IMG/VR virus record: IMGVR_UViG_3300025430_000015
Span: 1 to 64,000 of that record
DNA length: 64,000 nt
Source: a virus
Reading direction: 5' to 3' (one strand)
The translations under genes and the position numbers were made by a program. The notes below the pieces were generated by a model that ran no database searches, was not told where the DNA came from, and was given only the letters and a program-made list of their open reading frames with translations. This document shows positions 524-61,030 of this stretch, in pieces (the first letter of the stretch is position 1; each line of letters starts with the position of its first letter).

Positions 524-1651
524 ATGCCATTATTCTCATCGTTAAGTGACCTTGCCGCTCGTGCTTATGGACTCCTATCAGGATCTTTAGCACCTATTAG
601 CGACCTGTTTGCAAGAACAACATCAGGATCATTAGGAACAGCAACATCAGGACAACTTTGGGTTGCACAAACTGGTGTATGGTATGCAACGAGCGGATCA
701 GCTACCACATCAACAGCAGCTAGTTCTTACCCATTAGCTACAATACCTTACAAAGCTAGTGCAACAATGACGTTGAAGAGTGCTTCAAACGGTACTGGAA
801 TTGCTTTTTGGTGGACAAGTACTGGTAACTGGTGGGCAGTTGTTAACAATGCTTACTCACAAAATAACATAACAAGCTATACCTGTACTGGTGGATATCC
901 TTGCACAGGTTATACATGCGCAGGCTATGGACCAGTGTGTCAAAGCTATTACACTGTTTGTACAGGTTATGGTTACAGCAGTGCTTATGGTGATCCAAAT
1001 GCTAAGGGAGCAACTACAACGTTGCCTAAGCGAAAGCGTCGTACAAAAGAAGATTCACCAAATACTCGACCCATTGATGTTCCAAAGCCGCAAAACCTTA
1101 GTTACGCACCAATTCCACCACCATTCTTCCCACCCTTCTTTCCGCCTTTCTTCCCACCCTTTTTCCCACCATTCTTTCCACCTTTCTTTCCTCCATTCTT
1201 TCCACCGTTCTTTCCTCCGTTCTTTCCACCGTATTTCCCACCGTGCATAAGTTATGGATTAGCTTGTGGAGGATACGCTACAGGATGTACATCATATTCT
1301 TGCTCTTCTTATGGTGCTTGCGCTGGATACACAGCCAACTACACAACACAGTACTATAACCAGCTAAGCTTGCTACAATCTGTAGGTGGTACAATCACTA
1401 CAATTGCAACAGGAGTTCTACAAGGGCCTTCAAATAGCACAACAGCTCAGATTAACTCTATCCAAATCGTTACCACTAATAGCAACATTACAGCAACTGC
1501 CTTTAGTGATTCTGCATTGGTAACATCTCTGGGAACTTTGTCTAGCAATCAGACTGCTCCAACTGGTAATGTTAGTGTTGGTATTATTGATTCACCGGTT
1601 GGCGGAAGTGCCACCCAAGGTAGTACTGTAGGACCATTTACAGCGTTATAA
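524..1651 (+). CDS. fibre-like protein with (FFPP)n stalk and Cys/Tyr-rich flanks
   Basis: A 375-residue protein of unknown family. Residues 1-115 are Ser/Thr/Ala-rich with Trp pairs. Residues about 118-155 are Cys-, Tyr- and Gly-rich (CTGY- and CAGY-like units). A basic KRKRRTK patch follows. Residues 198-240 consist of ten FF-PP type units, the last being YFPP. A second Cys/Tyr-rich segment spans about 240-272, and the C-terminal 100 residues are Thr/Ser/Asn-rich. The start has a GGAG-type ribosome site at about 509. The architecture suggests a rigid proline-rich rod capped by two small disulfide- or metal-stabilised knots, plausibly a surface fibre. It sits directly upstream of an island with a prolyl-hydroxylase-like enzyme and a sulfotransferase. 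No function is proven. Confidence 0.8.
   Translation: MPLFSSLSDLAARAYGLLSGSLAPISDLFARTTSGSLGTATSGQLWVAQTGVWYATSGSATTSTAASSYPLATIPYKASATMTLKSASNGTGIAFWWTSTGNWWAVVNNAYSQNNITSYTCTGGYPCTGYTCAGYGPVCQSYYTVCTGYGYSSAYGDPNAKGATTTLPKRKRRTKEDSPNTRPIDVPKPQNLSYAPIPPPFFPPFFPPFFPPFFPPFFPPFFPPFFPPFFPPFFPPYFPPCISYGLACGGYATGCTSYSCSSYGACAGYTANYTTQYYNQLSLLQSVGGTITTIATGVLQGPSNSTTAQINSIQIVTTNSNITATAFSDSALVTSLGTLSSNQTAPTGNVSVGIIDSPVGGSATQGSTVGPFTAL
1115..1243 (+). repeat. in-frame 12-base repeats encoding FFPP units
   Basis: Ten consecutive 12-base units encode FFPP (nine times) and YFPP (once). Pro and Phe codons vary between CCA, CCC, CCG, CCT and TTC, TTT from unit to unit. The amino-acid pattern is therefore kept although the DNA has diverged, which points to selection on the protein repeat. 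Confidence 0.9.
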
Positions 1652-2144: not shown

Positions 2145-2465
2145 ATGAACGGACAACCAAAGCAAACGCCTTGGGAATTATATTTAGAAAATCTAAAGAA
2201 TACTTCCGAAGAAACATCTGAACAACGCCCAGCTAGACCATGGGATCTATTCAATAAAAAAATTGGTAGAGTAGAAGACGAATTAGCTAGTGAACGCCTT
2301 GCAATTTGCAAAGATTGTCCACGCATTCGTAAGTCATCCATGCTATGTAAAGAATGTGGTTGCTTTATGCCTGGAAAAGTAAAATTACCTAATGCATTCT
2401 GTCCAATAGGTAAATGGCAAGCCGTTGAACAAGAACTAGAGGTTAATGAGGAAGACGAAGAGTAA
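2145..2465 (+). CDS. small zinc-ribbon-like phage protein
   Basis: 106 residues. The middle contains CKDCPR, CKECGCFM and a closing CPIGKW, an arrangement of C-x2-C, C-x2-CGC and CP-x-GKW typical of a small phage family that probably binds zinc. The N-terminus has a PWELY motif and the C-terminus is strongly acidic. The stop overlaps the next start (TAATG). Its role is unknown; adaptor or DNA/RNA contact is a guess. Confidence 0.75.
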   Translation: MNGQPKQTPWELYLENLKNTSEETSEQRPARPWDLFNKKIGRVEDELASERLAICKDCPRIRKSSMLCKECGCFMPGKVKLPNAFCPIGKWQAVEQELEVNEEDEE

Positions 2466-3145
2466 TGTCGCGTCAAATCATAAAATACGAAAGTCGTAAT
2501 GGTTTTATAGATCACATGAGGCCTATGCTTTCCGTTGTACCTGATTGGTACAAAAAAACAAAAAGATGGGTAACTGACGAAAATGGTCAAGAATGGCCTG
2601 GAGTTAAACATTGCATCCCATTCCTTGAAAGCCTTACGCTCGGTTACACCATAGTTCTTGAAGAAAGTGTATATGTTCAAAGAACAGAAAACGGTGTAAT
2701 TATACGTTATAATAATCCAAAAGAACCTGTCGTTAACAATAGGCCAAGTGCAGTAACTGATCCATCACCAGTCCCAGAGGGATATGAAGATGAACATTTT
2801 ATTTGGTTTGCTAACATAACTGTAAGACCTCCTGATGGTTATTCATTACTTTACACACACCCATTGAATCGTTGGGATCTACCATTCTTAACAAGCAGTG
2901 CGGTGGTAGACGATTATGTAATGCCCGGTGCTAACATGTCTTTTTTTATTAAAAAAGGTTTTGAAGGTGAAATACCTAAAGGCACCCCTATAGCTCAAGT
3001 GATACCATTTAAAAGAGAAGAATGGGTAGCTAAATCTACAAAAGGTCTTTGGGACATAGCTGATACTACTGTGAAAGCTCCTATATCTGAGTTGTTGAAT
3101 GGTCATTATAGAAAAAACTTCTGGAAGAAGAAGGTGTATAAATAA
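2465..3145 (+). CDS. DUF6065-like phage protein, paralog 1
   Basis: 226 residues, paralogous to the next gene. Shared blocks are PDWYKKT near residue 25, a K-x-CIPFL segment, NRP, EHFIW, a central HP-x-NR-x-(D/E)LPF block, then KKGFEGxIPKGTPI-x-Q and IPFKRE(E/D)WVAK near the C-terminus. I associate the KGTPIxQxIPFKRE ending with the DUF6065 type of phage and bacterial proteins of unknown function, but that assignment is from memory. The beta-rich core could be a small-molecule-binding barrel. It is coupled to its neighbours by TAATG overlaps in the accessory island. Confidence 0.75.
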   Translation: MSRQIIKYESRNGFIDHMRPMLSVVPDWYKKTKRWVTDENGQEWPGVKHCIPFLESLTLGYTIVLEESVYVQRTENGVIIRYNNPKEPVVNNRPSAVTDPSPVPEGYEDEHFIWFANITVRPPDGYSLLYTHPLNRWDLPFLTSSAVVDDYVMPGANMSFFIKKGFEGEIPKGTPIAQVIPFKREEWVAKSTKGLWDIADTTVKAPISELLNGHYRKNFWKKKVYK

Positions 3146-3858
3146 TGTTTAAAAAGAATAATAAAAACGTACTTCATTATGAAGGCTCCCCAACCGTAGA
3201 AAAAAAGGGTATAGGAGCTATGGTTGAAATCGTACCTGATTGGTATAAAAAAACACCAAAGTTTTTAGATAATAAAGATCCAAATAACAATATGCCTGCT
3301 ATGGGTCTTAAGATGTGTATACCATTCTTAGATGCTATGACAACTGGATTTTATATGTCTTTGCCACAAGAAGTTTATGTAGAGCAAACAGAGAATGGAC
3401 CATCTATCCGTTGCAAACAACAACCAATGCCAATTAGCAATAGACCTCCAATGACTACAGACCCAATGCCATCGCCAGCTGGTCATGATGAAGAGCATTT
3501 TATTTGGCAAACTCAGTATGCTTTCCACCTTCCTGAAGGATATAGTGCAATTCTGACACACCCATTTAATAGGTTTGAACTACCATTTATAACATTTACT
3601 GGTATTGTAGACGGTGACTTTTTTATGCATGGCGGCAATATACCTTTTAGTATTAAAAAAGGCTTTGAAGGAGTTATCCCTAAAGGTACTCCAATACTGC
3701 AAATTATACCATTCAAAAGAGAAGACTGGGTAGCTAAAAAGAAAAAAGGAGTATGGAAAAGAAGCATGGAAAACCATCCCGAAAGAAGCTATGATTATCA
3801 AGTTGGTTGGTATAGAAAAAATATATGGCGTAAAAAAACTTATAAGGTAGAAAGTTAA
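3145..3858 (+). CDS. DUF6065-like phage protein, paralog 2
   Basis: 237 residues, second copy of the family encoded just upstream. It has the same order of motifs: PDWYKKTP, CIPFLDAMTTGF, NRPP, EEHFIW, HPFNRFELPF, KKGFEGVIPKGTPILQ and IPFKREDWVAKKK. The N-terminus differs (a short Lys/Asn-rich lead). Tandem retention of two diverged copies suggests a heteromer or two substrates. No catalytic motif is recognised. It overlaps both neighbours by one base. Confidence 0.75.
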   Translation: MFKKNNKNVLHYEGSPTVEKKGIGAMVEIVPDWYKKTPKFLDNKDPNNNMPAMGLKMCIPFLDAMTTGFYMSLPQEVYVEQTENGPSIRCKQQPMPISNRPPMTTDPMPSPAGHDEEHFIWQTQYAFHLPEGYSAILTHPFNRFELPFITFTGIVDGDFFMHGGNIPFSIKKGFEGVIPKGTPILQIIPFKREDWVAKKKKGVWKRSMENHPERSYDYQVGWYRKNIWRKKTYKVES

Positions 3859-4130
3859 TGTTTAAGAAAAACAAAATATATAATGAAAAGCGTCGTTGGA
3901 AAACAATGGTAATCCCTAAGAACGATGAGAACCAAACAAGGTACCTTCGTTTTACGGAATCACGCACTGCAACAAGACTGTTCATAGAAAAAGACAAGAA
4001 TTACAAATTTTATGTTGTCTCTAGAGGAACTAACCCAGGTAAAGTAAAAGTAGTCGGAATTGCAACAGACATAAAGAGTGCTATCACATTATCTAACCTT
4101 GAATTGGAAAAAATCAATAAAGGTGAATAA
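3858..4130 (+). CDS. small basic protein of unknown function
   Basis: 90 residues, Lys/Arg-rich N-terminus, predicted alpha/beta content, no recognisable motif and no membrane segment. It overlaps the preceding and following genes by one base (TAATG), so it is part of the same translation unit as the sulfotransferase downstream. Confidence 0.65.
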   Translation: MFKKNKIYNEKRRWKTMVIPKNDENQTRYLRFTESRTATRLFIEKDKNYKFYVVSRGTNPGKVKVVGIATDIKSAITLSNLELEKINKGE

Positions 4131-4834
4131 TGATTTATTCACCTGATAATAACTTTTTATTGTTAAAAAATTATAAAGTTGGTGGGAGCTCATTAGAAAT
4201 AGCGTTGACCAATATAGTTCCAGAAAATGCTACTTGCACAGAACTTAAACCTTCAGAGTATGGTCATATGCCAAGAAACCATATATATGATAATATTGAA
4301 CTAGAAAACCATGCTTCATATTATGATATATGTGATATATTCGGTGAAGAAAAAATAAATAATACAATTTCTGTTGTCTTTGTAAGACACCCATATGAGA
4401 TTGTAGCTTCATGGTATTTTCATAAAATGAAAGAATATTGGGGAGAAAAAACCAATGATAATGCTGACCCATTTGAATATGGTGGCGGTTATGACTGGGA
4501 TGCGTTATCTCTAAAACAAAAAGATTATTTAAATAAAATGTTTTTCTATGGAAAAGAAACAGATTTTCGTTCTATTAATAGTACAAAATGGATATATGCA
4601 CCAAATGGTGAAATACTAGTTGATCATGTTCTACGATATGAGAATGGAATAGAAAACGAAATAAATAAAATTTTACCAATGGTTGGGCTGCCAAAGATTA
4701 CAATACCTTACAAAGCAAAAAGCAAATACAAACCACAACATATTACCTATAAAAATATGTTTGGCAAACAAGAACTTGAAACTATACAAAAAGAATGGTC
4801 TTGGGAATTTGAAATCTTTGGTTATGAGCCTTAA
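4130..4834 (+). CDS. sulfotransferase family protein (PAPS-dependent)
   Basis: 234 residues, predicted to transfer sulfate from PAPS to a hydroxyl or amine. The N-terminal strand-loop LLLKNYKVGGSSLE contains the 5'-phosphosulfate loop (Lys16-Val-Gly-Gly-Ser-Ser), and VFVRHPYEIVAS provides the 3'-phosphate site with Arg86 and Ser94 spaced as in the family (R-x7-S). Length is close to small bacterial and phage sulfotransferases. An APS-kinase-like gene four genes downstream (6708-7127) could supply PAPS. The acceptor is unknown; candidates are a virion protein, a glycan or a host surface molecule. The donor-site motifs make the family call fairly firm; the substrate is inference. Confidence 0.75.
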   Translation: MIYSPDNNFLLLKNYKVGGSSLEIALTNIVPENATCTELKPSEYGHMPRNHIYDNIELENHASYYDICDIFGEEKINNTISVVFVRHPYEIVASWYFHKMKEYWGEKTNDNADPFEYGGGYDWDALSLKQKDYLNKMFFYGKETDFRSINSTKWIYAPNGEILVDHVLRYENGIENEINKILPMVGLPKITIPYKAKSKYKPQHITYKNMFGKQELETIQKEWSWEFEIFGYEP

Positions 4835-5410
4835 ATGACACTAACTAAGGTTTGGAGCAAATACAATAATCCATTTAATTTTATTAACAAAGGCAACGTA
4901 GACGTTGGTAAAATTGCGGATTATTTGTTGAGCAAGAATGAAGATAAATACTTTGATGAACGGTTAAATATAATCCACCATCAACATGGTAAAATTCTAA
5001 TAGTGCAAGATTACCCCAGGAATTGGTTCTATCCGGCACCTTTCACGCCAGAATTTGAATGTAAAGATAAAGAACTTTGGGCATTAACTAAACCAATAAT
5101 CGATAAATTAGAAAAAGACTGCGATGGTAAAGCAGCTAAAATATTTTATTTCTTATTGCCAGCTGGAACCAATATCTATATTCATATGGATCTTGGACAA
5201 TATTTTAGTGCTGTACATAGACATCAAATACCGATAATAACTAATCCTCAATGTGAAACATGGGTTGATGGCGAAACTATAAACATGAAGCCAGGGGAAA
5301 TCTGGGAGATAAATAATGTTAAACGCCATGCAGTTGATAACAATGGAACAACACCAAGGATTAATTTAGTTGTGGACATAATGCCTATGTGGGCTATAGA
5401 ATCAAAATAG
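4835..5410 (+). CDS. aspartyl/asparaginyl beta-hydroxylase-like 2OG-Fe(II) dioxygenase
   Basis: 191 residues. A double-stranded beta-helix core is indicated by IHMD (His117-x-Asp119), HRHQIPI around residue 130, the distal His165 in KRHAVDNN and Arg175 in PRINLVVDI. This is the iron- and 2-oxoglutarate-binding set of the aspartyl/asparaginyl beta-hydroxylase family, which hydroxylates Asp or Asn side chains. GEIWEINN before the distal His is also typical. The start follows the sulfotransferase stop with no gap. Target unknown. All key ligands are present, so it is probably active. Confidence 0.75.
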   Translation: MTLTKVWSKYNNPFNFINKGNVDVGKIADYLLSKNEDKYFDERLNIIHHQHGKILIVQDYPRNWFYPAPFTPEFECKDKELWALTKPIIDKLEKDCDGKAAKIFYFLLPAGTNIYIHMDLGQYFSAVHRHQIPIITNPQCETWVDGETINMKPGEIWEINNVKRHAVDNNGTTPRINLVVDIMPMWAIESK

Positions 5411-5420
5411 GAGACAAAAT

Positions 5421-6116
5421 ATGCTTAGAGAACAATTTGAATTGCCTTTAAATCAAAAAGCATATGATGACGGCTTTTACGAGTTTCGTGGATTGCAAAT
5501 AGCCATTGGTGAGGGTGTTTATGCAGAGGCTTATGGAATTGATGTGTTTTTTGAGAACATGTTACTTTTTGTAAAAGAAAAGATTAATTCATTAGAAGGC
5601 CTTACCATAATAGACATGTGTGCTGGATCAGGCATGCTCGGCATAGCAATGGCAATAGAATTCCCCAATTCAGTAATTTATGGTGTAGAGAAATATGAAA
5701 AGCCATTTTTTTGGACTACAAAGAATGCAGATGGTTTTAAAGAGCAAATAAATAAAAGCAATTCTAAATTCATTCCAGTGATGTGTAGTGCTCTTGATTC
5801 AATTGATAATCTTAAACATCTTCATGGTCAGGTCGATTTTATTCTTGCAGGTTATCCATGCATACCCATCCCAGATGACCTTTCAAAAGTGGATACTCTC
5901 CCTTACGATCTAACATCAGTAGCTGGTGGCGAAGACGGGTTAGATGTTATAAAAGAAATTTTAACCGCATCATCTATTCTTCTAAAAAAAGGTGGAATTT
6001 TAGTAACAACTACTCCAGTAAGAATGTTTAAACATGTAGAACCATTGCTTGATGACTCAGTGTGGAGCGAAACATTTGAATCACCTCTTGAGTTCATGGT
6101 TACAGTTAAAAAATAA
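5421..6116 (+). CDS. PrmC/HemK-like SAM-dependent methyltransferase
   Basis: 231 residues. Motif I (IIDMCAGSGMLG, residues 63-74) binds S-adenosylmethionine and GVEKYEK corresponds to motif II. ILAGYPCIP at about 141-149 occupies the place of the catalytic NPPY loop of N5-glutamine methyltransferases. GGEDGLDVIKEIL followed by LLKKGGILV also resembles the PrmC C-terminal half. The NPPY motif is altered to GYPC, so the target or chemistry may differ from release-factor glutamine methylation. A GGAG ribosome site precedes the start. It lies between two dioxygenase genes. Confidence 0.65.
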   Translation: MLREQFELPLNQKAYDDGFYEFRGLQIAIGEGVYAEAYGIDVFFENMLLFVKEKINSLEGLTIIDMCAGSGMLGIAMAIEFPNSVIYGVEKYEKPFFWTTKNADGFKEQINKSNSKFIPVMCSALDSIDNLKHLHGQVDFILAGYPCIPIPDDLSKVDTLPYDLTSVAGGEDGLDVIKEILTASSILLKKGGILVTTTPVRMFKHVEPLLDDSVWSETFESPLEFMVTVKK

Positions 6117-6126
6117 AAGGTAAATC

Positions 6127-6708
6127 ATGGATGAAATAAAAAGAGAAATATTAGCACCAGGCATCATAAGCTATAGCAATGTAGGAGCAAATATTTCTAA
6201 TATGGTTCCTGAATGGGAAGAGCATGTTAAAAATGGTTCTTTAAATTGGGCTCCACATTCTTATGTTGGAGAAAACATAAATGTTCCAGAAGTTAGAAAA
6301 GTAAAGCTTATGGGTATTTCCAATGATGGTATAAACGAAATAATAGATAGTATAAGAGAACATTTTGATAATGCTTATAAAGCATACGTAGACGATTATT
6401 GTGAAAGGTATCGTACCAATACTATTGGATCTGATGCATACCAAATTCTAAAGTATGAAATAGGTCATCATTATAAAGCACATACTGATTGGGATCGTGG
6501 TGAGTGGTTTGAAAAAAGAACTTTTTCTTTAACACATTATCTTAACGATGATTACGAGGGTGGAGAAATTAATTATGTTGAATTTGGTTTAAAAATTAAA
6601 CCAAAGAAGGGGCAATTGATTATTTTCCCTGCACACTTCCCTTATGCACACCAAGTAGAACCAGTTATCAGTGGAGTGCGCTGGGCAATAACAAAATTCT
6701 ACCACTAA
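6127..6708 (+). CDS. prolyl-4-hydroxylase-like 2OG-Fe(II) oxygenase
   Basis: 193 residues. The C-terminal half has the complete iron and cosubstrate set of the P4H/PiuC-type fold: HTD (His119-x-Asp121), a THYLNDDYEGGEINY strand pair, KPKKGQLIIFPA, YAHQV with His175, and GVRWAITKF with Arg185. Members hydroxylate proline or other residues in proteins, or small molecules. The stop overlaps the start of the APS-kinase-like gene. The neighbouring FFPP-rich fibre protein is an obvious candidate substrate, but this is only inference from proximity. Confidence 0.75.
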   Translation: MDEIKREILAPGIISYSNVGANISNMVPEWEEHVKNGSLNWAPHSYVGENINVPEVRKVKLMGISNDGINEIIDSIREHFDNAYKAYVDDYCERYRTNTIGSDAYQILKYEIGHHYKAHTDWDRGEWFEKRTFSLTHYLNDDYEGGEINYVEFGLKIKPKKGQLIIFPAHFPYAHQVEPVISGVRWAITKFYH

Positions 6709-7127
6709 TGATTATCCAGATTATTGGGCTTCCTGGATCAGGTAAGACCGCCCTAGCAAATGGTTTAAAAGAAAAAATACCTGTAATTCATTTAAATGCT
6801 GATGAGGTTAGGGCAACAATCAATTCAGATCTTGGGTTCTCAAACGATGACAGGGTTGAACAAGCACGCAGGCTTGGTGAGATGGCAAGACTTTTAGAAC
6901 GCCAAGGTCATAACATAATTGTGGATTTTGTTTGCCCTACGGAAGAGGCAAGAGAGGCTTTTGGCAAACCAGACATTCTTATCTGGATGGACCGTATCAA
7001 AAAAAGCCGTTTTGAGGACACCAATACCCTTTGGCAAGACCCAATAAATTACGTTGATTTTATAATCAAAAATGGCTTAACCGTTGAACAAGAAGTAGAT
7101 TGCATCATTAGTAAATACGGCCTTTAG
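6708..7127 (+). CDS. APS-kinase-like P-loop kinase
   Basis: 139 residues. Walker A is GLPGSGKT (7-14). NADEVRATINSDLGFSNDDR followed by ARRLGEMARLL closely follows the adenylylsulfate kinase (CysC) pattern, and DFVCPTEEAR stands where CysC has its phospho-serine loop. It is shorter than cellular CysC (about 200 residues) and ends with an RFEDTN-type segment instead of the usual lid. In CysC the reaction makes PAPS from APS and ATP, which would feed the sulfotransferase at 4130-4834. Phosphorylation of another substrate remains possible because the C-terminus is divergent. Confidence 0.65.
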   Translation: MIIQIIGLPGSGKTALANGLKEKIPVIHLNADEVRATINSDLGFSNDDRVEQARRLGEMARLLERQGHNIIVDFVCPTEEAREAFGKPDILIWMDRIKKSRFEDTNTLWQDPINYVDFIIKNGLTVEQEVDCIISKYGL

Positions 7128-7235: not shown

Positions 7236-9455
7236 ATGGCCAATAAAAAACCCAAGAATAATATTACTAGAGGGTACCGTTCAACCAATAATAAGGTCAT
7301 TGAAGGTTGGACTGGTGGTGAGGGTGGACCACACCCGCCAGAATATAGTAGTAATTATAAGACTATTCTATTTAGTTATTTTGCCACGAACAAAAATGGT
7401 AAAGTACCAGAAGGTTGGAGAGGTGGTCAAGGTCCACATGTCCCACCACCTTATGTAGGACCTAAGAGTAGCTTTACTAGAGCATTCTATTCACCCAATA
7501 CTGAAGCGTATGAGCTTGGTTGGAGAGGTGGCTATGGATTCCAAAAACACCTTGATTACTTTAAGAATGCCATCGCTTTGGCCACAATATTGGTTAATAA
7601 CCAGTCAAAAATCGGTAGAATTAAACAAGCTTCATCTACGTCTACAAATTTAGCAAAAACCTCAAAAAGTTATATCCAATTAAGATTTGCCATTGCTCTA
7701 CAAACCTCAGCAATTGTTACTAGATACATTAAGTCAAAACTTAAATCTGCAATAGTTAATTATGTTGGTGTTATAAAGAATAGCAAGCGTTTTACAGGTA
7801 TTCGTCGTGCTACCGCTAATAGCATTGGTTACGCAAAAGTTACTAAAATCACAAGACATTTTAGAGTTTCTATAGTTAATCTTGTAAACTTTGCATTCGA
7901 AGGCCGCATCGATCGATTCTTTAGAAAAGCGATTGCTGCCTATACACAATCAGTAATTATTGTCAAACGATCTAGATTCACCCGTACTGCTAAGGCATTG
8001 CAAACCTATTTAGCAACTAGTTTAAAGCCATTTGATCAATATTACAGAAGTGCGATCGCTACTTCAACCAGACTAGTAAATTCTAGTAAAACTTTTAATA
8101 GGTTTAGAAAAAGCACTATAACAAGTATAAACATAGCAAATAGCTATAAAACAATCAAACGTATAAAACAAGCATTAGCTGAATCCACGTTCTTGGTTCG
8201 TAATATAAAATCCTACAATAATTTTAAAAGAGCGTTTGCCACCAGAGTTTCGCTTATTACATCTAAAAATTCTAACATTAGAAGCAAATTAGTTACCGTT
8301 ACTAGGGTATCTCTTGTAAAGAGTAGCAGGACATATAATGCCAGAGTCCGTGCTATAGCTATCAATATTGTCAAAACTATTAAAATTGGTAGGTTTATAA
8401 GAACCGGTTCAGCTAATGCTATCAACATAGCAAATTCTTATAGAATTAATGTTCTTTTTAAAAAAGCCATTTCTATGGTTATCAACATAGCACGAGATGG
8501 AAAGATCGATCGATTCTACCGTTATGCCATAGCTAGAACAACCAATTTGGTTACCACTACTAAACAATCTAGATTTATTAGAGTAGCTAAATCAACCCAA
8601 GTAGGCATTACCATTGCAACAAGAATTGTCGTAGCTAGACGCCTCGCAACAGCTAACCGTGCAATGCTCGTTAAAGTCAGCAAAAACTATGGCAAGAACA
8701 TAAAAGTTATATTCACAGGGTTAACCAAAAATAACAAATTATTTAGATTCACAAGAAGAGCAACGGCAGCAGTCATTAATCTTGCTACTACCAGGAAATT
8801 TTCTAGGTTCATTAGAGTTGCTAAAGTAACTGCAACTAATATTGCATTCGATGGAAAAATTGATCAATTCTATCGTTATGCGATTGCTAGAACTACAGGG
8901 CTTATTAAAACCACTAAATTATCTAGGTTCAATAGGAATGCCAACGCTAATAGAATAAACCTTGCTAGAACCAATAAACGCCGTGCTACCTATATCAAGA
9001 CTCTATCCACTAATTTGAGTTTTAATATCAAATCCCATGCATACCGTAAAATTGCCAAGAATATTGTTATATTCATTGGTAAAGTTGTAAGTGGTGGAAA
9101 AGTTACACATAAGAATGCTTCAGTATTGCAGAGCGTATCAGCTACTGTAACCAAGGCAAACAACCGTAAAAAATACGCCACTGCCACGGTTAGCTATGAA
9201 ATTGGTACTACCAAGGGTAGAACTTATCTTAGAAGAGCAATTGCCACAACAGTCGGATTGGTTCGCTATGGACTCAGCCTAGTAATGAATGTAAGATCTA
9301 TAGAATCTGCCAAGGTTGAGCCAGTCAACGAGGTCAATTTCTATGTTACACCTAACAACCCAGACGTTGTTGGGGAGTACACATCTGAAAATGACCAGCC
9401 TGGTGACTATTCAGAGCCTGTGAATAACCTTGGTGAAGATGTAGTACCTACTTAA
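7236..9455 (+). CDS. highly basic protein of about 28 twenty-residue repeats
   Basis: 739 residues, family not recognised. Residues 1-107 carry three GW(T/R)GG repeats separated by Pro/Tyr-rich stretches (EGWTGG, EGWRGG, LGWRGG). Residues about 108-680 are a run of degenerate units of about 20 residues with the pattern RFxRxAIAxxxxLVxxxKxxx, giving a very high Lys/Arg/Ile/Ala/Asn content. The last 50 residues are acidic and Pro/Asn-rich. No signal peptide is seen. Position between the accessory island and the endolysin and fibre genes suggests a virion protein. The basic charge would fit binding of DNA or anionic cell-surface polymers, or stacking into a fibre. Confidence 0.75.
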   Translation: MANKKPKNNITRGYRSTNNKVIEGWTGGEGGPHPPEYSSNYKTILFSYFATNKNGKVPEGWRGGQGPHVPPPYVGPKSSFTRAFYSPNTEAYELGWRGGYGFQKHLDYFKNAIALATILVNNQSKIGRIKQASSTSTNLAKTSKSYIQLRFAIALQTSAIVTRYIKSKLKSAIVNYVGVIKNSKRFTGIRRATANSIGYAKVTKITRHFRVSIVNLVNFAFEGRIDRFFRKAIAAYTQSVIIVKRSRFTRTAKALQTYLATSLKPFDQYYRSAIATSTRLVNSSKTFNRFRKSTITSINIANSYKTIKRIKQALAESTFLVRNIKSYNNFKRAFATRVSLITSKNSNIRSKLVTVTRVSLVKSSRTYNARVRAIAINIVKTIKIGRFIRTGSANAINIANSYRINVLFKKAISMVINIARDGKIDRFYRYAIARTTNLVTTTKQSRFIRVAKSTQVGITIATRIVVARRLATANRAMLVKVSKNYGKNIKVIFTGLTKNNKLFRFTRRATAAVINLATTRKFSRFIRVAKVTATNIAFDGKIDQFYRYAIARTTGLIKTTKLSRFNRNANANRINLARTNKRRATYIKTLSTNLSFNIKSHAYRKIAKNIVIFIGKVVSGGKVTHKNASVLQSVSATVTKANNRKKYATATVSYEIGTTKGRTYLRRAIATTVGLVRYGLSLVMNVRSIESAKVEPVNEVNFYVTPNNPDVVGEYTSENDQPGDYSEPVNNLGEDVVPT
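7557..9280 (+). repeat. protein-level tandem repeats, period about 60 bases
   Basis: Translated units such as RFYRYAIARTTNLVTTTK and QFYRYAIARTTGLIKTTK recur roughly every 20 codons. Near-identical DNA blocks (for example ATCGATCGATTCT at about 7909 and 8507) show recent exchange between some units, while others are strongly diverged. Unit borders are approximate. Confidence 0.7.
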
Positions 9456-37907: not shown

Positions 37908-38393
37908 ATGGATACTAAAATTGATTATAAATGGCAAAAAGAGTCTGCCTGTAAAGGAATGGATATTGAGTTGTTCTATCCATCGCATGGTAAAGCTCCA
38001 TCAAAACAACTATCAGACAAATGCGATGGTTGTCCAGTATCCACACAATGCCTTGATCATGCACTCAAATATGAAGAATATGGGCATTGGGCTAATACAG
38101 GACCAACTGAACGTAGAGAATTACGTAATAAACTTGGCATAGAATTGGTTAATATTAATATTGCGTTTCTAAATAATCAATATATTGAAGAAGAAGAAAA
38201 AGTTGAATCTACTTCTATAAAAATTAAAGGACGTGGTCGTAGACCAGCAGATTGTGGGACACGTTCTGGTTATGGTGCACACAGGCGAAAAAAAGAAATC
38301 CCATGCGAAGCATGCCGTGCTGCACAGAATGCAAGCGTTAAAGAGTTTAATAAAAATAAAAAAGACAAAGAAAGTGATCCATTTTATCAATGA
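37908..38393 (+). CDS. WhiB-like iron-sulfur transcription regulator
   Basis: 161 residues. Cys15, Cys39, Cys42 and Cys48 (C-x2-C-x5-C in KCDGCPVSTQCLDHAL) are the [4Fe-4S] ligands of WhiB proteins. The usual GVWGG turn is replaced by GHWANTGPTERR. The second half has GTRSGYGAHRRKKEIPCEACRAAQNA, a Cys-pair module also seen attached to actinophage WhiB-like and small regulatory proteins. WhiB proteins are found in actinobacteria and their phages, so this gene is the best host indicator here. It probably modulates host or phage promoters through sigma factor contact. Confidence 0.8.
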   Translation: MDTKIDYKWQKESACKGMDIELFYPSHGKAPSKQLSDKCDGCPVSTQCLDHALKYEEYGHWANTGPTERRELRNKLGIELVNINIAFLNNQYIEEEEKVESTSIKIKGRGRRPADCGTRSGYGAHRRKKEIPCEACRAAQNASVKEFNKNKKDKESDPFYQ

Positions 38394-39085
38394 AAATTGG
38401 CTTAGTAATTCCTGTTCTTAATAATTTTGATCAAGCAATAGATATGATCTATAGTGCTAATAGTGAGCATAATGTAAAGTTTTATATCCAACCACAATAC
38501 CGTTATCAAGTTCCATTAGCTAAAGCATGGAATACTGGTATCAAGAATGCAATTACTGATGGGTGTGATGTAATCATTGTAAGCAATGATGATGTTCTAT
38601 TTTCTGAAAAGACTATAGATTATTTAGCTCGTGAAACTAAAGCAATGCCCGATGATTATGTAATGGCATTCCCAGTAGACATGTTTGATGCTTTAAGTGA
38701 CCCATCACAAATCTTATGGGATGATGAAATAGTTGGCGATGTTTCATACGCTGTTGAAGATCAAAGTTACGCTTGTTTTGCAATACGACCAGACTTTTTT
38801 GAAAAGTGTGGAACGTTTGATGAGAATTTTGATCCAGCTTGGTGGGAAGATACTGATATGAAATATCGTATCAAGTTGCTTGGATACAAAACTATACAAA
38901 CAAGCATCCCTTACGTGCATATTAGACACCAGACTACAAAAAAACTCACTCAACCTCTTAATTCGTTGAAGAGCGGTCAGTATTATGAAAAAAAGTGGGG
39001 AAGTACTCGTAAAGACTTGAAAGAGGTCTATGCTAAGCCCTATAATGATCCTAATATGAGTCCAAGAGAATGGAAGAATTCATGA
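38390..39085 (+). CDS. GT2-like glycosyltransferase
   Basis: 231 residues. MKIGLVIPVLNNFDQAIDMIYSA is the nucleotide-binding first strand of GT-A folds, VIIVSNDDVLF supplies the DxD-like metal motif (NDD), and PAWWEDTDMKYRIKLLGYK is the ED motif of GT2 enzymes. It overlaps the WhiB-like stop by four bases and the next glycosyltransferase by four. Likely transfers a sugar to a virion, DNA or surface acceptor. Substrate unknown. Confidence 0.75.
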   Translation: MKIGLVIPVLNNFDQAIDMIYSANSEHNVKFYIQPQYRYQVPLAKAWNTGIKNAITDGCDVIIVSNDDVLFSEKTIDYLARETKAMPDDYVMAFPVDMFDALSDPSQILWDDEIVGDVSYAVEDQSYACFAIRPDFFEKCGTFDENFDPAWWEDTDMKYRIKLLGYKTIQTSIPYVHIRHQTTKKLTQPLNSLKSGQYYEKKWGSTRKDLKEVYAKPYNDPNMSPREWKNS

Positions 39086-40356
39086 GCAAGATTAAGGTAC
39101 TAGCGTGGGGTGACTATGCTTGTAGCACAGGGTTTGGTACCGTGATGAAAAATATCATGGGAGAACTGTACAAGACTGGCAGCTATGACATTGACGTAGT
39201 TGGTGTTAATTATGATGGTGGGCCTTACGATACAACTCTTTGGCCTGGTCGCCTATGGCCTGCTATTAGTGCTTTACGTACACAAGGACCATACGGAGAT
39301 GTTTTTGGTCGTCAAGTGTTCCTAGACCTCCTTGCTCAAGGCGATTATGACATCGTATTTATTGTTCAAGATACGTTTATTGTATTGGATATTGTTCCTC
39401 AAATTCTTGAATTGCAACGTACTAAGCCAAATACGTTCTCGACTATTTACTACTATCCATTCGATTGTGCTCCACGTGAAGAATGGGTCAACCAATGTGT
39501 ATCTAGTTTTGACTTCCCTGTTGCTTATACTGAGTACGCAAAGAACGAAAGCCGTAAAGTAATTGGTAACATTGCTGATAAGCAAGATGTTATTTACCAT
39601 GGAACCAATACTAAAGACTTCTTTCCACTATCACCAGAAGAAAAGAAACAAGCTAAAAGCATGATCTTCCCTATGCTTCAAGATAAATTTTTGATTACGA
39701 ATGTTAATCGTAACCAAGGTCGCAAAGATGTTTCAAGAAGTCTTATGATCCTTAAAGAATTACGCAATATGGGAGTAGAGGATGCGTTCCTTTACATGCA
39801 TATGCAAGAAAAAGACTTTGGTGGAAGTATTCTTGAAATGGCTCGTGCACTTGGGCTAGATCCAAATAAAGATTTTACTGTACCAGACCCAAGGCAATTT
39901 GGTGCACACAGCGGATTCCCAATTGAATTCCTTAACCAAATCTACAACGCTAGCGATGTTTACCTTACCACTACTCACGGTGAAGGTTGGGGCCTAAGTA
40001 TCACAGAAGCAATGTCTACTAAGACACCTGTTGTTGCTCCTGATAATACATCAGTCCCTGAAATTCTTGGCGATGACCGTGGTTGGAGAATCCCTAGTGG
40101 GCACACCCCATCTCATTGGATTATTAAAGATAATGATAATGAACGTATGCGTCCATTAATGAGCGTTGAAGATGCTGCTAAGACTATTAAGCACATTATG
40201 GATAATCCAAAGGAAGCTGCAGAACGTGCAGAGAAAGCCTATGAATGGGCATCTACAAACACTTGGGAAGCCATTGGTAAGCAATGGATGAATGTATTTA
40301 ATCGTGCTACCAATAAAGCTAAGATGGCACGAAAACTTAAGGAACAGGCAAAGTGA
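39082..40356 (+). CDS. GT4-like (GT-B fold) glycosyltransferase
   Basis: 424 residues from ATG 39082, which overlaps the previous stop; an ATG at 39070 is possible. GTVMKNIMGEL near the start and LITNVNRNQGRKDVSRSLMILKEL at the hinge are GT4 features. THGEGWGLSITEAMSTKTPVVAPDNTSVPEIL contains the E-x7-E donor-site motif. Second gene of a three-gene overlapping glycosyltransferase set, expected to build an oligosaccharide together with its neighbours. Confidence 0.8.
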   Translation: MSKIKVLAWGDYACSTGFGTVMKNIMGELYKTGSYDIDVVGVNYDGGPYDTTLWPGRLWPAISALRTQGPYGDVFGRQVFLDLLAQGDYDIVFIVQDTFIVLDIVPQILELQRTKPNTFSTIYYYPFDCAPREEWVNQCVSSFDFPVAYTEYAKNESRKVIGNIADKQDVIYHGTNTKDFFPLSPEEKKQAKSMIFPMLQDKFLITNVNRNQGRKDVSRSLMILKELRNMGVEDAFLYMHMQEKDFGGSILEMARALGLDPNKDFTVPDPRQFGAHSGFPIEFLNQIYNASDVYLTTTHGEGWGLSITEAMSTKTPVVAPDNTSVPEILGDDRGWRIPSGHTPSHWIIKDNDNERMRPLMSVEDAAKTIKHIMDNPKEAAERAEKAYEWASTNTWEAIGKQWMNVFNRATNKAKMARKLKEQAK

Positions 40357-60427: not shown

Positions 60428-60815
60428 CCAACGTCAAGAACGTGAGCTAGAAGAGCAATGGCCAATGGCCAAGAGAACTATTGGTTCAGGTGCTAAGTGG
60501 GAGAAGGCAGACCTTCAAACACAAGAGTACCAGAACATAGAGTTCATGATTGAATGCAAGAGCACACAAAGCTCAAGCTTTTCCATTACTAAAACTATTT
60601 GGAACACTGTTAAAAGCCATGCTCAGAACAAGAGTTGGCTTAGTCGTCCGGTACTTGCTGTACGTTTGTACGGTCCTACTATTGAAATGACTGAGTGGGG
60701 GGAAAGAGAAAACACTCCTGAAACTTTACCAGTCGAGCTTGACCTTATCGTAATAGATAAGGATGATTTTCTTGAATTATACGAAGATTACATAAGACTA
60801 AAAGAGAATGAATAA
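60402..60815 (+). CDS. Holliday-junction-resolvase-like nuclease A
   Basis: 137 residues. IGSGAKWEKADLQTQEYQNIEFMIECKSTQSSSFSI follows the PD-(D/E)XK arrangement (Asp, then ECK) with the GSG start of resolvase-type enzymes. VKSHAQNKSWLSRPVLAVRLYG resembles the later helix-strand. It may resolve branched replication intermediates. Overlaps the previous gene by 26 bases. Confidence 0.65.
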   Translation: MGKFQQKFSQRQERELEEQWPMAKRTIGSGAKWEKADLQTQEYQNIEFMIECKSTQSSSFSITKTIWNTVKSHAQNKSWLSRPVLAVRLYGPTIEMTEWGERENTPETLPVELDLIVIDKDDFLELYEDYIRLKENE

Positions 60816-61030
60816 TGTGGTCGTGGATCCTAGCAGTTGTCGGAAGCTTTGGTGTTTTTACTATAGGTAGTAAAAATATCTATGGATGGGTTGTTCTATT
60901 CTTGAATGAATGTTTATGGGTTGCTTATGCTTTGCATACACATCAATATGGTTTTATTTTTGCTTCTGCTTTATACATGGGTACATACATTAGAAACTAT
61001 TTGAACTGGAAAAAAGATGATAAAGAATAG
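60815..61030 (+). CDS. small integral membrane protein
   Basis: 71 residues with three hydrophobic segments (WSWILAVVGSFGVFTIG, YGWVVLFLNECLWVAYAL, YGFIFASALYMGTYI) and a charged end. Similar to a small actinophage membrane family with a PnuC-like flavour. A transport or holin function cannot be assigned. Confidence 0.65.
   Translation: MWSWILAVVGSFGVFTIGSKNIYGWVVLFLNECLWVAYALHTHQYGFIFASALYMGTYIRNYLNWKKDDKE

Follow-up and report, generated by a model that had tools for sequence, protein, structure and literature searches.

In Skp1, a 2-oxoglutarate (2OG) oxygenase hydroxylates a prolyl residue, and the new hydroxyl is then capped with N-acetylglucosamine (GlcNAc). Human AspH holds its metal with only two His ligands and no Asp, human PAPSS1 joins an adenosine 5'-phosphosulfate (APS) kinase to an ATP sulfurylase, and NadR combines a nicotinamide mononucleotide adenylyltransferase (NMNAT) with a nicotinamide riboside kinase, the kinase not coming first. 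Closer to the present case, OM43 phage genomes carry Sulfotransfer_3 genes, and these phage groups have 2OG-Fe(II) oxygenases as well; the authors treat the phage sulfotransferases as auxiliary genes of unclear function, and the available portion of their article describes no hydroxylase-sulfotransferase pairing (PMC10580990). An AspH is named in Limnohabitans phage DC33, in an article whose main text lacks the word 'sulfotransferase' (PMC12195039). Titles and abstract beginnings in the open-access literature yielded no description of an AspH-sulfotransferase phage module or of a viral hydroxylate-and-cap modification. Here we describe such a candidate module, a five-gene island at positions 4130-7127 of a 64,000-base stretch (hereafter, the window) of the 88,643-base viral contig IMGVR_UViG_3300025430_000015. 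Its parts belong to known families; what is new is the gene combination and a possible pair of enzymes that would form the sulfuryl donor, 3'-phosphoadenosine 5'-phosphosulfate (PAPS).

Open reading frames (ORFs) were called in the window by a simple script. Five intact ones make up the island, all on the plus strand, with spacing from a 1-base overlap (-1) to +10 bp:

4130..4834, plus strand: sulfotransferase (Sulfotransfer_2-like) with a K16-V-G-G-S-S loop and R86-x7-S94; from Pfam, invariant residues and IMG/VR relatives
4835..5410, plus strand: AspH-type 2OG-Fe(II) hydroxylase with a complete HxD...H...R set; from Pfam, alignment, an AlphaFold model and PDB neighbours
5421..6116, plus strand: PrmC-like class I methyltransferase with an altered motif IV (GYPC); from NCBIfam, an alignment of three sequences and a profile scan
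6127..6708, plus strand: 2OG-FeII_Oxy_3 (prolyl 4-hydroxylase-like) oxygenase; from Pfam and its ligands
6708..7127, plus strand: APS-kinase-like P-loop kinase, stand-alone, 139 aa; from Pfam and NCBIfam, an alignment of 19 sequences and the fold of a relative, L010

That these are five intact, coupled and co-directional genes, as the original prediction from the letters alone had proposed, is confirmed by the ORF calls, the Pfam and NCBIfam matches, the conserved residues, and ratios of nonsynonymous to synonymous substitution of 0.05-0.27 for the window against two close lineages, L033 and L034; the kinase has the lowest values of the five (0.06 and 0.05, respectively). The same prediction proposed co-occurrence of the five genes in relatives as its test, and this found no support: among the loci fetched, no lineage besides L033, L034 and the window virus has all five genes in the same order, and a scan with the methyltransferase returned eight loci, every one in the window clade. 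We infer that the methyltransferase, found only in that clade, and the second oxygenase are probably additions to the island.

The part that recurs is the adjacent pair of AspH and sulfotransferase. It was counted with our own sulfotransferase profiles because the Pfam models PF03567 and PF13469 missed several phage sulfotransferases (on 50 phage records they gave 8 and 11 matches at E <= 1e-3, of which 7 and 5 were above cut-off). From the best 80 of 244 loci found by an AspH profile scan, 82 ORFs were grouped at 90% identity, with more than 700 bp required on both flanks, into 37 clusters, one of which was dropped for a short flank. A sulfotransferase abuts AspH (<60 bp) in 20 of the resulting 36 lineages and lies within 3 kb in 25; with the ST16 group of sulfotransferases left out, 15 of 36 still abut. 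By comparison, families other than AspH in these neighbourhoods, counted where they had 12 or more loci, abut a sulfotransferase in 41 of 809 cases, or in 12 of 681 once the AspH/2OG superfamily (29/128) is set aside. Comparison with this last baseline gives a Fisher p of 3e-21, to be read with the caution that clusters at 90% are still related and the lineages not fully independent. Sampled from the other side, among the best 80 of 145 loci in an ST16 scan, AspH abuts in 22 of 33 lineages and lies within 3 kb in 28, and the two samples have contigs in common. The pair stands in differing gene surroundings and in either gene order, the two genes in most cases overlapping by a few bases, and five sulfotransferase groups adjoin AspH: the window type, ST39, ST79, ST100 and ST16. 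The link between hydroxylase and sulfotransferase genes, first suggested from the window, is upheld by this recurrence in many phage lineages.

The window sulfotransferase passes the Pfam cut-off for Sulfotransfer_2 (PF03567; E = 5.5e-5, 23.8 bits vs 22) and matches PHROG 3347, galactose-3-O-sulfotransferase (4.5e-6). In ten sequences including the window's, K16, V17, S21, R86 and S94 are invariant and G18 is kept in at least 90%, in line with the predicted PAPS loop and R86-x7-S94; K16 would belong to the PAPS loop, and R86 and S94 would be the Arg/Ser of the 3'-phosphate site. Other viral contigs in IMG/VR hold relatives of 33-46% identity; tblastn against named phages gave no match, and the profile found none in the PDB up to E = 1. 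Among the other groups, ST39 matches Sulfotransfer_2 (38.4 bits), ST79 Sulfotransfer_3 (62.2 bits) and ST100 Sulfotransfer_1 (22.3 and 25.1 bits vs a cut-off of 22). ST16 is the least certain as a sulfotransferase: two members, both in locus L114, pass Sulfotransfer_2 (28.1 and 25.8 vs 22), five of nine match PHROG 3347, as the window enzyme does, and K14, T15, G17, R75, P77 and S83 are invariant in all nine. Profile-profile alignments between groups (hhalign) gave probabilities of 93%, 85% and 64%, the last one weak. One further ORF, in L105 (family f208), is a sulfotransferase by motif and the ST16 model only, with no Pfam match up to E = 1. The idea that many AspH loci lack a sulfotransferase was considered and rejected: the neighbouring ST39 and ST79 are sulfotransferases by Pfam, and ST16 and ST100 by motifs plus Pfam.

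Both predicted 2OG-Fe(II) hydroxylases hold up, each with complete metal ligands. The window AspH passes the cut-off for Asp_Arg_Hydrox (PF05118; 1.4e-12, 48.2 bits vs 22.6), and H117, D119, H165 and R175 are invariant in 27 sequences including its own. Its AlphaFold model (pLDDT 93.2) has as its nearest PDB neighbour L-proline cis-4-hydroxylase (4p7w, 8.8e-10), with human AspH also listed (5apa, 6.9e-7). It resembles AspH in Pfam match, fold and conserved His ligands and differs from the human enzyme in having an HxD, Asp ligand included. The second oxygenase passes 2OG-FeII_Oxy_3 (PF13640; 2.8e-17, 63.9 bits vs 27), with ligands H119-x-D121, H175 and R185 read directly from the window sequence alone. 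Some loci with the ST16-AspH pair likewise have another 2OG oxygenase abutting AspH (e.g., L132, L084, L104). Locus L114 holds eight OG3-type ORFs, two of AspH type and two ST16-type sulfotransferases inside 18.8 kb.

Another kind of transferase also neighbours AspH. A GlcNAc transferase of the PF11397 family, which presumably includes the Skp1 hydroxyproline enzyme, lies within 1 kb of AspH in four of the 36 lineages, two of them without a sulfotransferase (Pfam 4.1e-19 in L089). In L107 and L109 the transferase is 226-253 bp from AspH and no sulfotransferase was found, the Pfam match having been made on L089. The arrangement looks as if a hydroxyl were made and then capped, as a 2OG oxygenase and a transferase do on Skp1; it differs from Skp1 in that the usual neighbour of AspH in phages is a sulfotransferase. 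Transferases of this family near AspH, with or without a sulfotransferase, were seen in L106, L107, L109, L089 (7626-8624), L091 and L137.

The fifth gene could supply the donor. The window kinase passes the Pfam cut-off for APS_kinase (6.7e-18, 65.6 bits vs 21.1), and a sequence search of the PDB ranks APS kinases as its closest relatives. Asp480, Arg483, Phe492 and Arg497 contact APS in Mycobacterium tuberculosis CysC, according to the available part of PMC4373884, and the residues that align with them, D32, R35, F44 and R49, are invariant in 19 kinase sequences; the mapping covers these four residues and leaves the CysC lid contacts Lys562 and Phe576 outside. The fold was read from a model of the relative L010 (pLDDT 91.9), not of the window protein. 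All 50 rows listed by Foldseek for this model are APS kinases, PAPS synthetases or Penicillium ATP sulfurylase, which aligns through its C-terminal domain (397-573). VIA was run on the whole model, and hits to the kinase domain took up its list; Z reaches 18.5 for APS kinases or APS-kinase-like domains (24-32% identity and 1.6-2.5 Å in rows covering the kinase domain only); gluconate kinase comes next (Z 15.2, 13% identity).

In relatives the kinase has a partner, a small nucleotidyltransferase with an HxGH motif, which is fused to it in 116 of 118 viral loci of the kinase family. Among 80 cellular kinase loci, mostly titled SAR11 or SAR86, the partner is a separate gene in 64, fused in nine and not found in seven. 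The kinase stands alone in the window, L058 and L105, and Pfam lists no ATP sulfurylase, NMNAT or other nucleotidyltransferase domain in the 139-aa window ORF. The claim of a self-contained pathway is not borne out: a search of the 88.6-kb record for the partner, run without a positive control, gave no match, and the record was not searched for ATP sulfurylase. In relatives the partner's domain, C-terminal in the fusions, resembles archaeal-type NMNATs (PDB 2qjt, 1.3e-5; 1f9a, 3.7e-5), with NCBIfam matches below cut-offs. The order of an APS-kinase-like domain followed by an HxGH nucleotidyltransferase recalls human PAPSS1; it differs in that the nucleotidyltransferase of the relatives is small and NMNAT-like in sequence and that the window has the kinase only. 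The alignment of human PAPS synthetase (1x6v) spans both L010 domains and takes in 243 of the 253 residues of the model, though at 16.8 Å, so the domain arrangement differs.

Cellular genomes offer a view of what the pair may do. In the genomes of 35 of the 80 cellular loci, ATP sulfurylase was found in two and CysD in none (controls 5/14 and 10/14). The CysQ model matches at E <= 1e-3 in 33 of the 35, yet all 14 controls match too; above cut-off, CysQ occurs in 10/35 against 2/14 controls. CysQ-family genes are found on four of the 80 loci, among them L263, where CysQ (PAP phosphatase, 292.6 bits vs 228.8) is directly upstream of the kinase, and L266, with the same family in the same place. 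We also used 91 genomes of a SAR86 order, the order being assigned from one member, L253 (genome G064). The kinase is present in 47 of these, in every case together with the partner (in G086 on a separate contig), and Sulfotransfer_3 in 48 (controls 2/14). The two go together: 44 genomes have both, three the kinase and partner only, four the sulfotransferase only and 40 neither (Fisher p = 1e-17), although such p-values overstate the case, since the genomes are related by descent and not complete. Those without the kinase also tend to be smaller. In 20 of the 91, no more than 1 kb separates a Sulfotransfer_3 match from a kinase match (in G094 from a kinase fragment), a count for which 48 kinase and 30 sulfotransferase positions were computed and the others compared by eye. 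ATP sulfurylase was found in one of the 91, a kinase genome, and CysD in none (controls 5/14 and 8/14); CysQ at E <= 1e-30 occurs in 45/47 genomes with the kinase and in 29/44 without it (controls 7/14). On the simplest reading the pair supplies PAPS, which makes it a candidate for a new PAPS-forming pair.

Taken together, we read the island as a phage tailoring module built on the recurrent AspH-sulfotransferase pair, with PAPS made by the kinase, and give this reading a probability of roughly 0.45. The kinase would convert host APS and ATP to PAPS, as its sequence, its relative's fold and the contact residues suggest. AspH, perhaps together with the second oxygenase, would use O2 and 2-oxoglutarate to place a hydroxyl on an acceptor, and the adjoining sulfotransferase would move the sulfuryl group from PAPS onto that hydroxyl. 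The acceptor is most likely a polypeptide and may be a virion protein, perhaps even one encoded beside the island (candidate at 524-1651, below). We find doubtful the wider proposal that, in phages and marine bacteria, the kinase and NMNAT-like pair makes PAPS from sulfate without ATP sulfurylase and so feeds a phage module that hydroxylates and then sulfates a polypeptide.

Several results weigh against this tailoring-module reading. Forty sulfotransferase ORFs form 19 clusters at 70% identity. In the 16 that came from scans with the window's own sulfotransferase type, several of whose loci are short, AspH is directly adjacent in only three (window, L058, L056), while in six the sulfotransferase abuts a WhiB gene instead; the kinase is within 5 kb in 12 of the 16. 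AspH is also adjacent in L071 and in the L093 group, two clusters that had entered the set via AspH. Ten of the 36 AspH lineages have no sulfotransferase match on the locus, and one more has it only at 8.8 kb. The reading of ST16 as sulfotransferases underlies five of the 20 abutting pairs and all of the second sample. Pfam matches nothing in the ST16 members L129 and L083 up to E = 1, and a PDB search with the ST16 profile gave no sulfotransferase structure above noise (best 0.34 over 20 residues). In the kinase scan (best 80 of at least 473 loci), 15 of 34 clusters were dropped for short flanks, and 14 of the remaining 19 show neither sulfotransferase nor AspH within 3 kb, as judged with three sulfotransferase models only; the kinase is within 3 kb in only eight of the 33 ST16 lineages. 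The kinase itself misses the apsK equivalog cut-off (TIGR00455, 66.7 vs 138.7 bits), its LDGD motif reads LNAD (N30 in place of CysC Asp478, the second Asp kept), and most of its lid is apparently absent. Because of the Asn, the short lid and the missed cut-off, its substrate could differ. A Campylobacter homologue of APS kinase reportedly phosphorylates a CDP compound. The original suggestion that the kinase could make the donor is supported as far as its nearest relatives, the fold seen in L010 and the contact residues go, and is weakened by these three departures.

An unlikely reading, and still the best placed of the alternatives, is that AspH and the sulfotransferase act on a small molecule or a polymer of the host surface rather than on a phage protein, perhaps as a block to superinfection, and that the sulfated hydroxyl need not be the one that AspH makes. 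The match of the window sulfotransferase to a galactose-3-O-sulfotransferase family fits this view, as do the AspH model's nearest neighbour, an enzyme acting on free proline, a glycosyltransferase gene in the window at 39070-40356, and a Trp_halogenase-family gene just past ST39, AspH and kinase in L148, L151, L188 and L217. That last placement may mean little because 23 of 147 loci in these phages have a member of the halogenase family. Against this view, human AspH, whose substrate is protein, is also among the nearest folds, and PF11397 transferases sit near AspH in four lineages.

Rather improbable, in our judgement, is a role of the kinase in nucleotide or NAD salvage, together with the NMNAT-like domain and a PnuC-like transporter; its place beside the sulfotransferase would then be chance or a shared insertion site, and PAPS would come from the host. 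The archaeal-type NMNAT match of the relatives and the many viral kinase loci without a sulfotransferase agree with this, and a PnuC-like ORF abuts or overlaps the kinase/NMNAT gene in five viral loci (L015, L165, L167, L170, L196), out of 28 with a PnuC-like match and 183 with the kinase, redundant loci counted, which also tells against a PAPS-making role. NadR likewise joins a P-loop kinase to an NMNAT domain, and a PnuC-like neighbour occurs in a few phages; in the relatives, however, the kinase is APS-kinase-like and comes first, and the NadR model scores 19.2 bits on L026 against a cut-off of 341. The PnuC-like ORFs are only 69-71 aa, and the three tested fall below the Pfam cut-off (20.3-24.4 vs 27.3). 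Salvage also sits poorly with a kinase domain nearest to APS kinases with the phosphosulfate-binding arginines kept, with the tracking of sulfotransferases in the 91 genomes and with the CysQ neighbour. The window itself has a 71-aa PnuC-like ORF at 60815-61030, covering about 40% of the NMN_transporter model and under its cut-off. That the genes merely occupy a tolerant insertion site with unrelated functions is very unlikely and already disfavoured: the kinase/NMNAT gene is in 118 of 147 loci (the kinase was the bait for 75 of them), and AspH or AspH-sulfotransferase comes and goes within a gene order that repeats, yet that pair is found adjacent in different surroundings, in both orders and with different sulfotransferase groups.

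If the tailoring-module reading is right, hydroxylation followed by sulfation is a phage modification with a possible use in tuning adhesins or evading defence, and phage sulfotransferases, whose function is called unclear in the available text of PMC10580990, gain a role. The kinase-nucleotidyltransferase pair, if it works as proposed, would explain how PAPS reaches sulfotransferases in marine bacteria that hardly show ATP sulfurylase or CysD.

Three further features lie upstream of the island:

524..1651, plus strand: possible acceptor, a 375-aa protein with Tyr/Cys-rich stretches around a PPFF/PPYF repeat tract; proposed by inference only
2465..3858, plus strand: two tandem PHROG 7084 proteins with no function assigned; they recur on loci with the window sulfotransferase type, an association only
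3858..4130, plus strand: 90-aa ORF of no assigned family, directly upstream of the sulfotransferase; from the ORF call and relatives

The candidate acceptor has no PHROG match and has homologues in L033, L034, L058 and L105. Those in L058 and L105 keep the Tyr/Cys-rich stretches and lack the PPFF tract; both loci carry AspH and the kinase, a co-occurrence that may be plain common descent. The PHROG 7084 profile found no match in the PDB. Relatives of the 90-aa ORF lie near the sulfotransferase, AspH and kinase in L058. Directly after the island, 7236-9455 encodes a 739-aa protein that looks repetitive by eye and matched neither Pfam nor PHROG.

The methyltransferase is PrmC-like, as predicted, to the extent of a weak NCBIfam match (6.4e-16), but its 58.6 bits fall short of the equivalog cut-off of 199.1, and it reached no Pfam cut-off. 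Motif IV, which is NPPY in PrmC, reads GYPC or SYPC in an alignment of three sequences, which speaks against PrmC function.

No named phage is near-identical to the window. A WhiB gene at 37908-38393 (52.2 bits, cut-off 23.6) suggests an actinobacterial host, whiB serving as a marker of such hosts in the part of PMC6802176 available.

Several minor observations concern the same families. A DNA-modification pathway was considered, with kinase relatives in phages AhaSv and DLP_6, and their annotated neighbours gave no lead. In 107 viral loci, redundant ones included, a small DUF2061 membrane protein is encoded no more than 150 bp from the kinase, and in one SAR86 contig it separates kinase and partner. 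Its places include L157:10753-10962 (with the Pfam match), L213:10744-10953 and L255:8402-8617. The Trp_halogenase-family genes just past ST39, AspH and kinase/NMNAT are at L148:7344-8918, L151:10996-12174, L188:8685-10259 and L217:3393-4946 (Pfam 1.4e-105 on L217). In L100 a tetrapyrrole-methylase-like gene (3475-4206; 1.7e-10) directly follows AspH and kinase/NMNAT. Limnohabitans phage DC33 (L027, PQ492659.1, 39 kb), which has an AspH-like ORF, is filed under Inoviridae, odd for a genome of such size.

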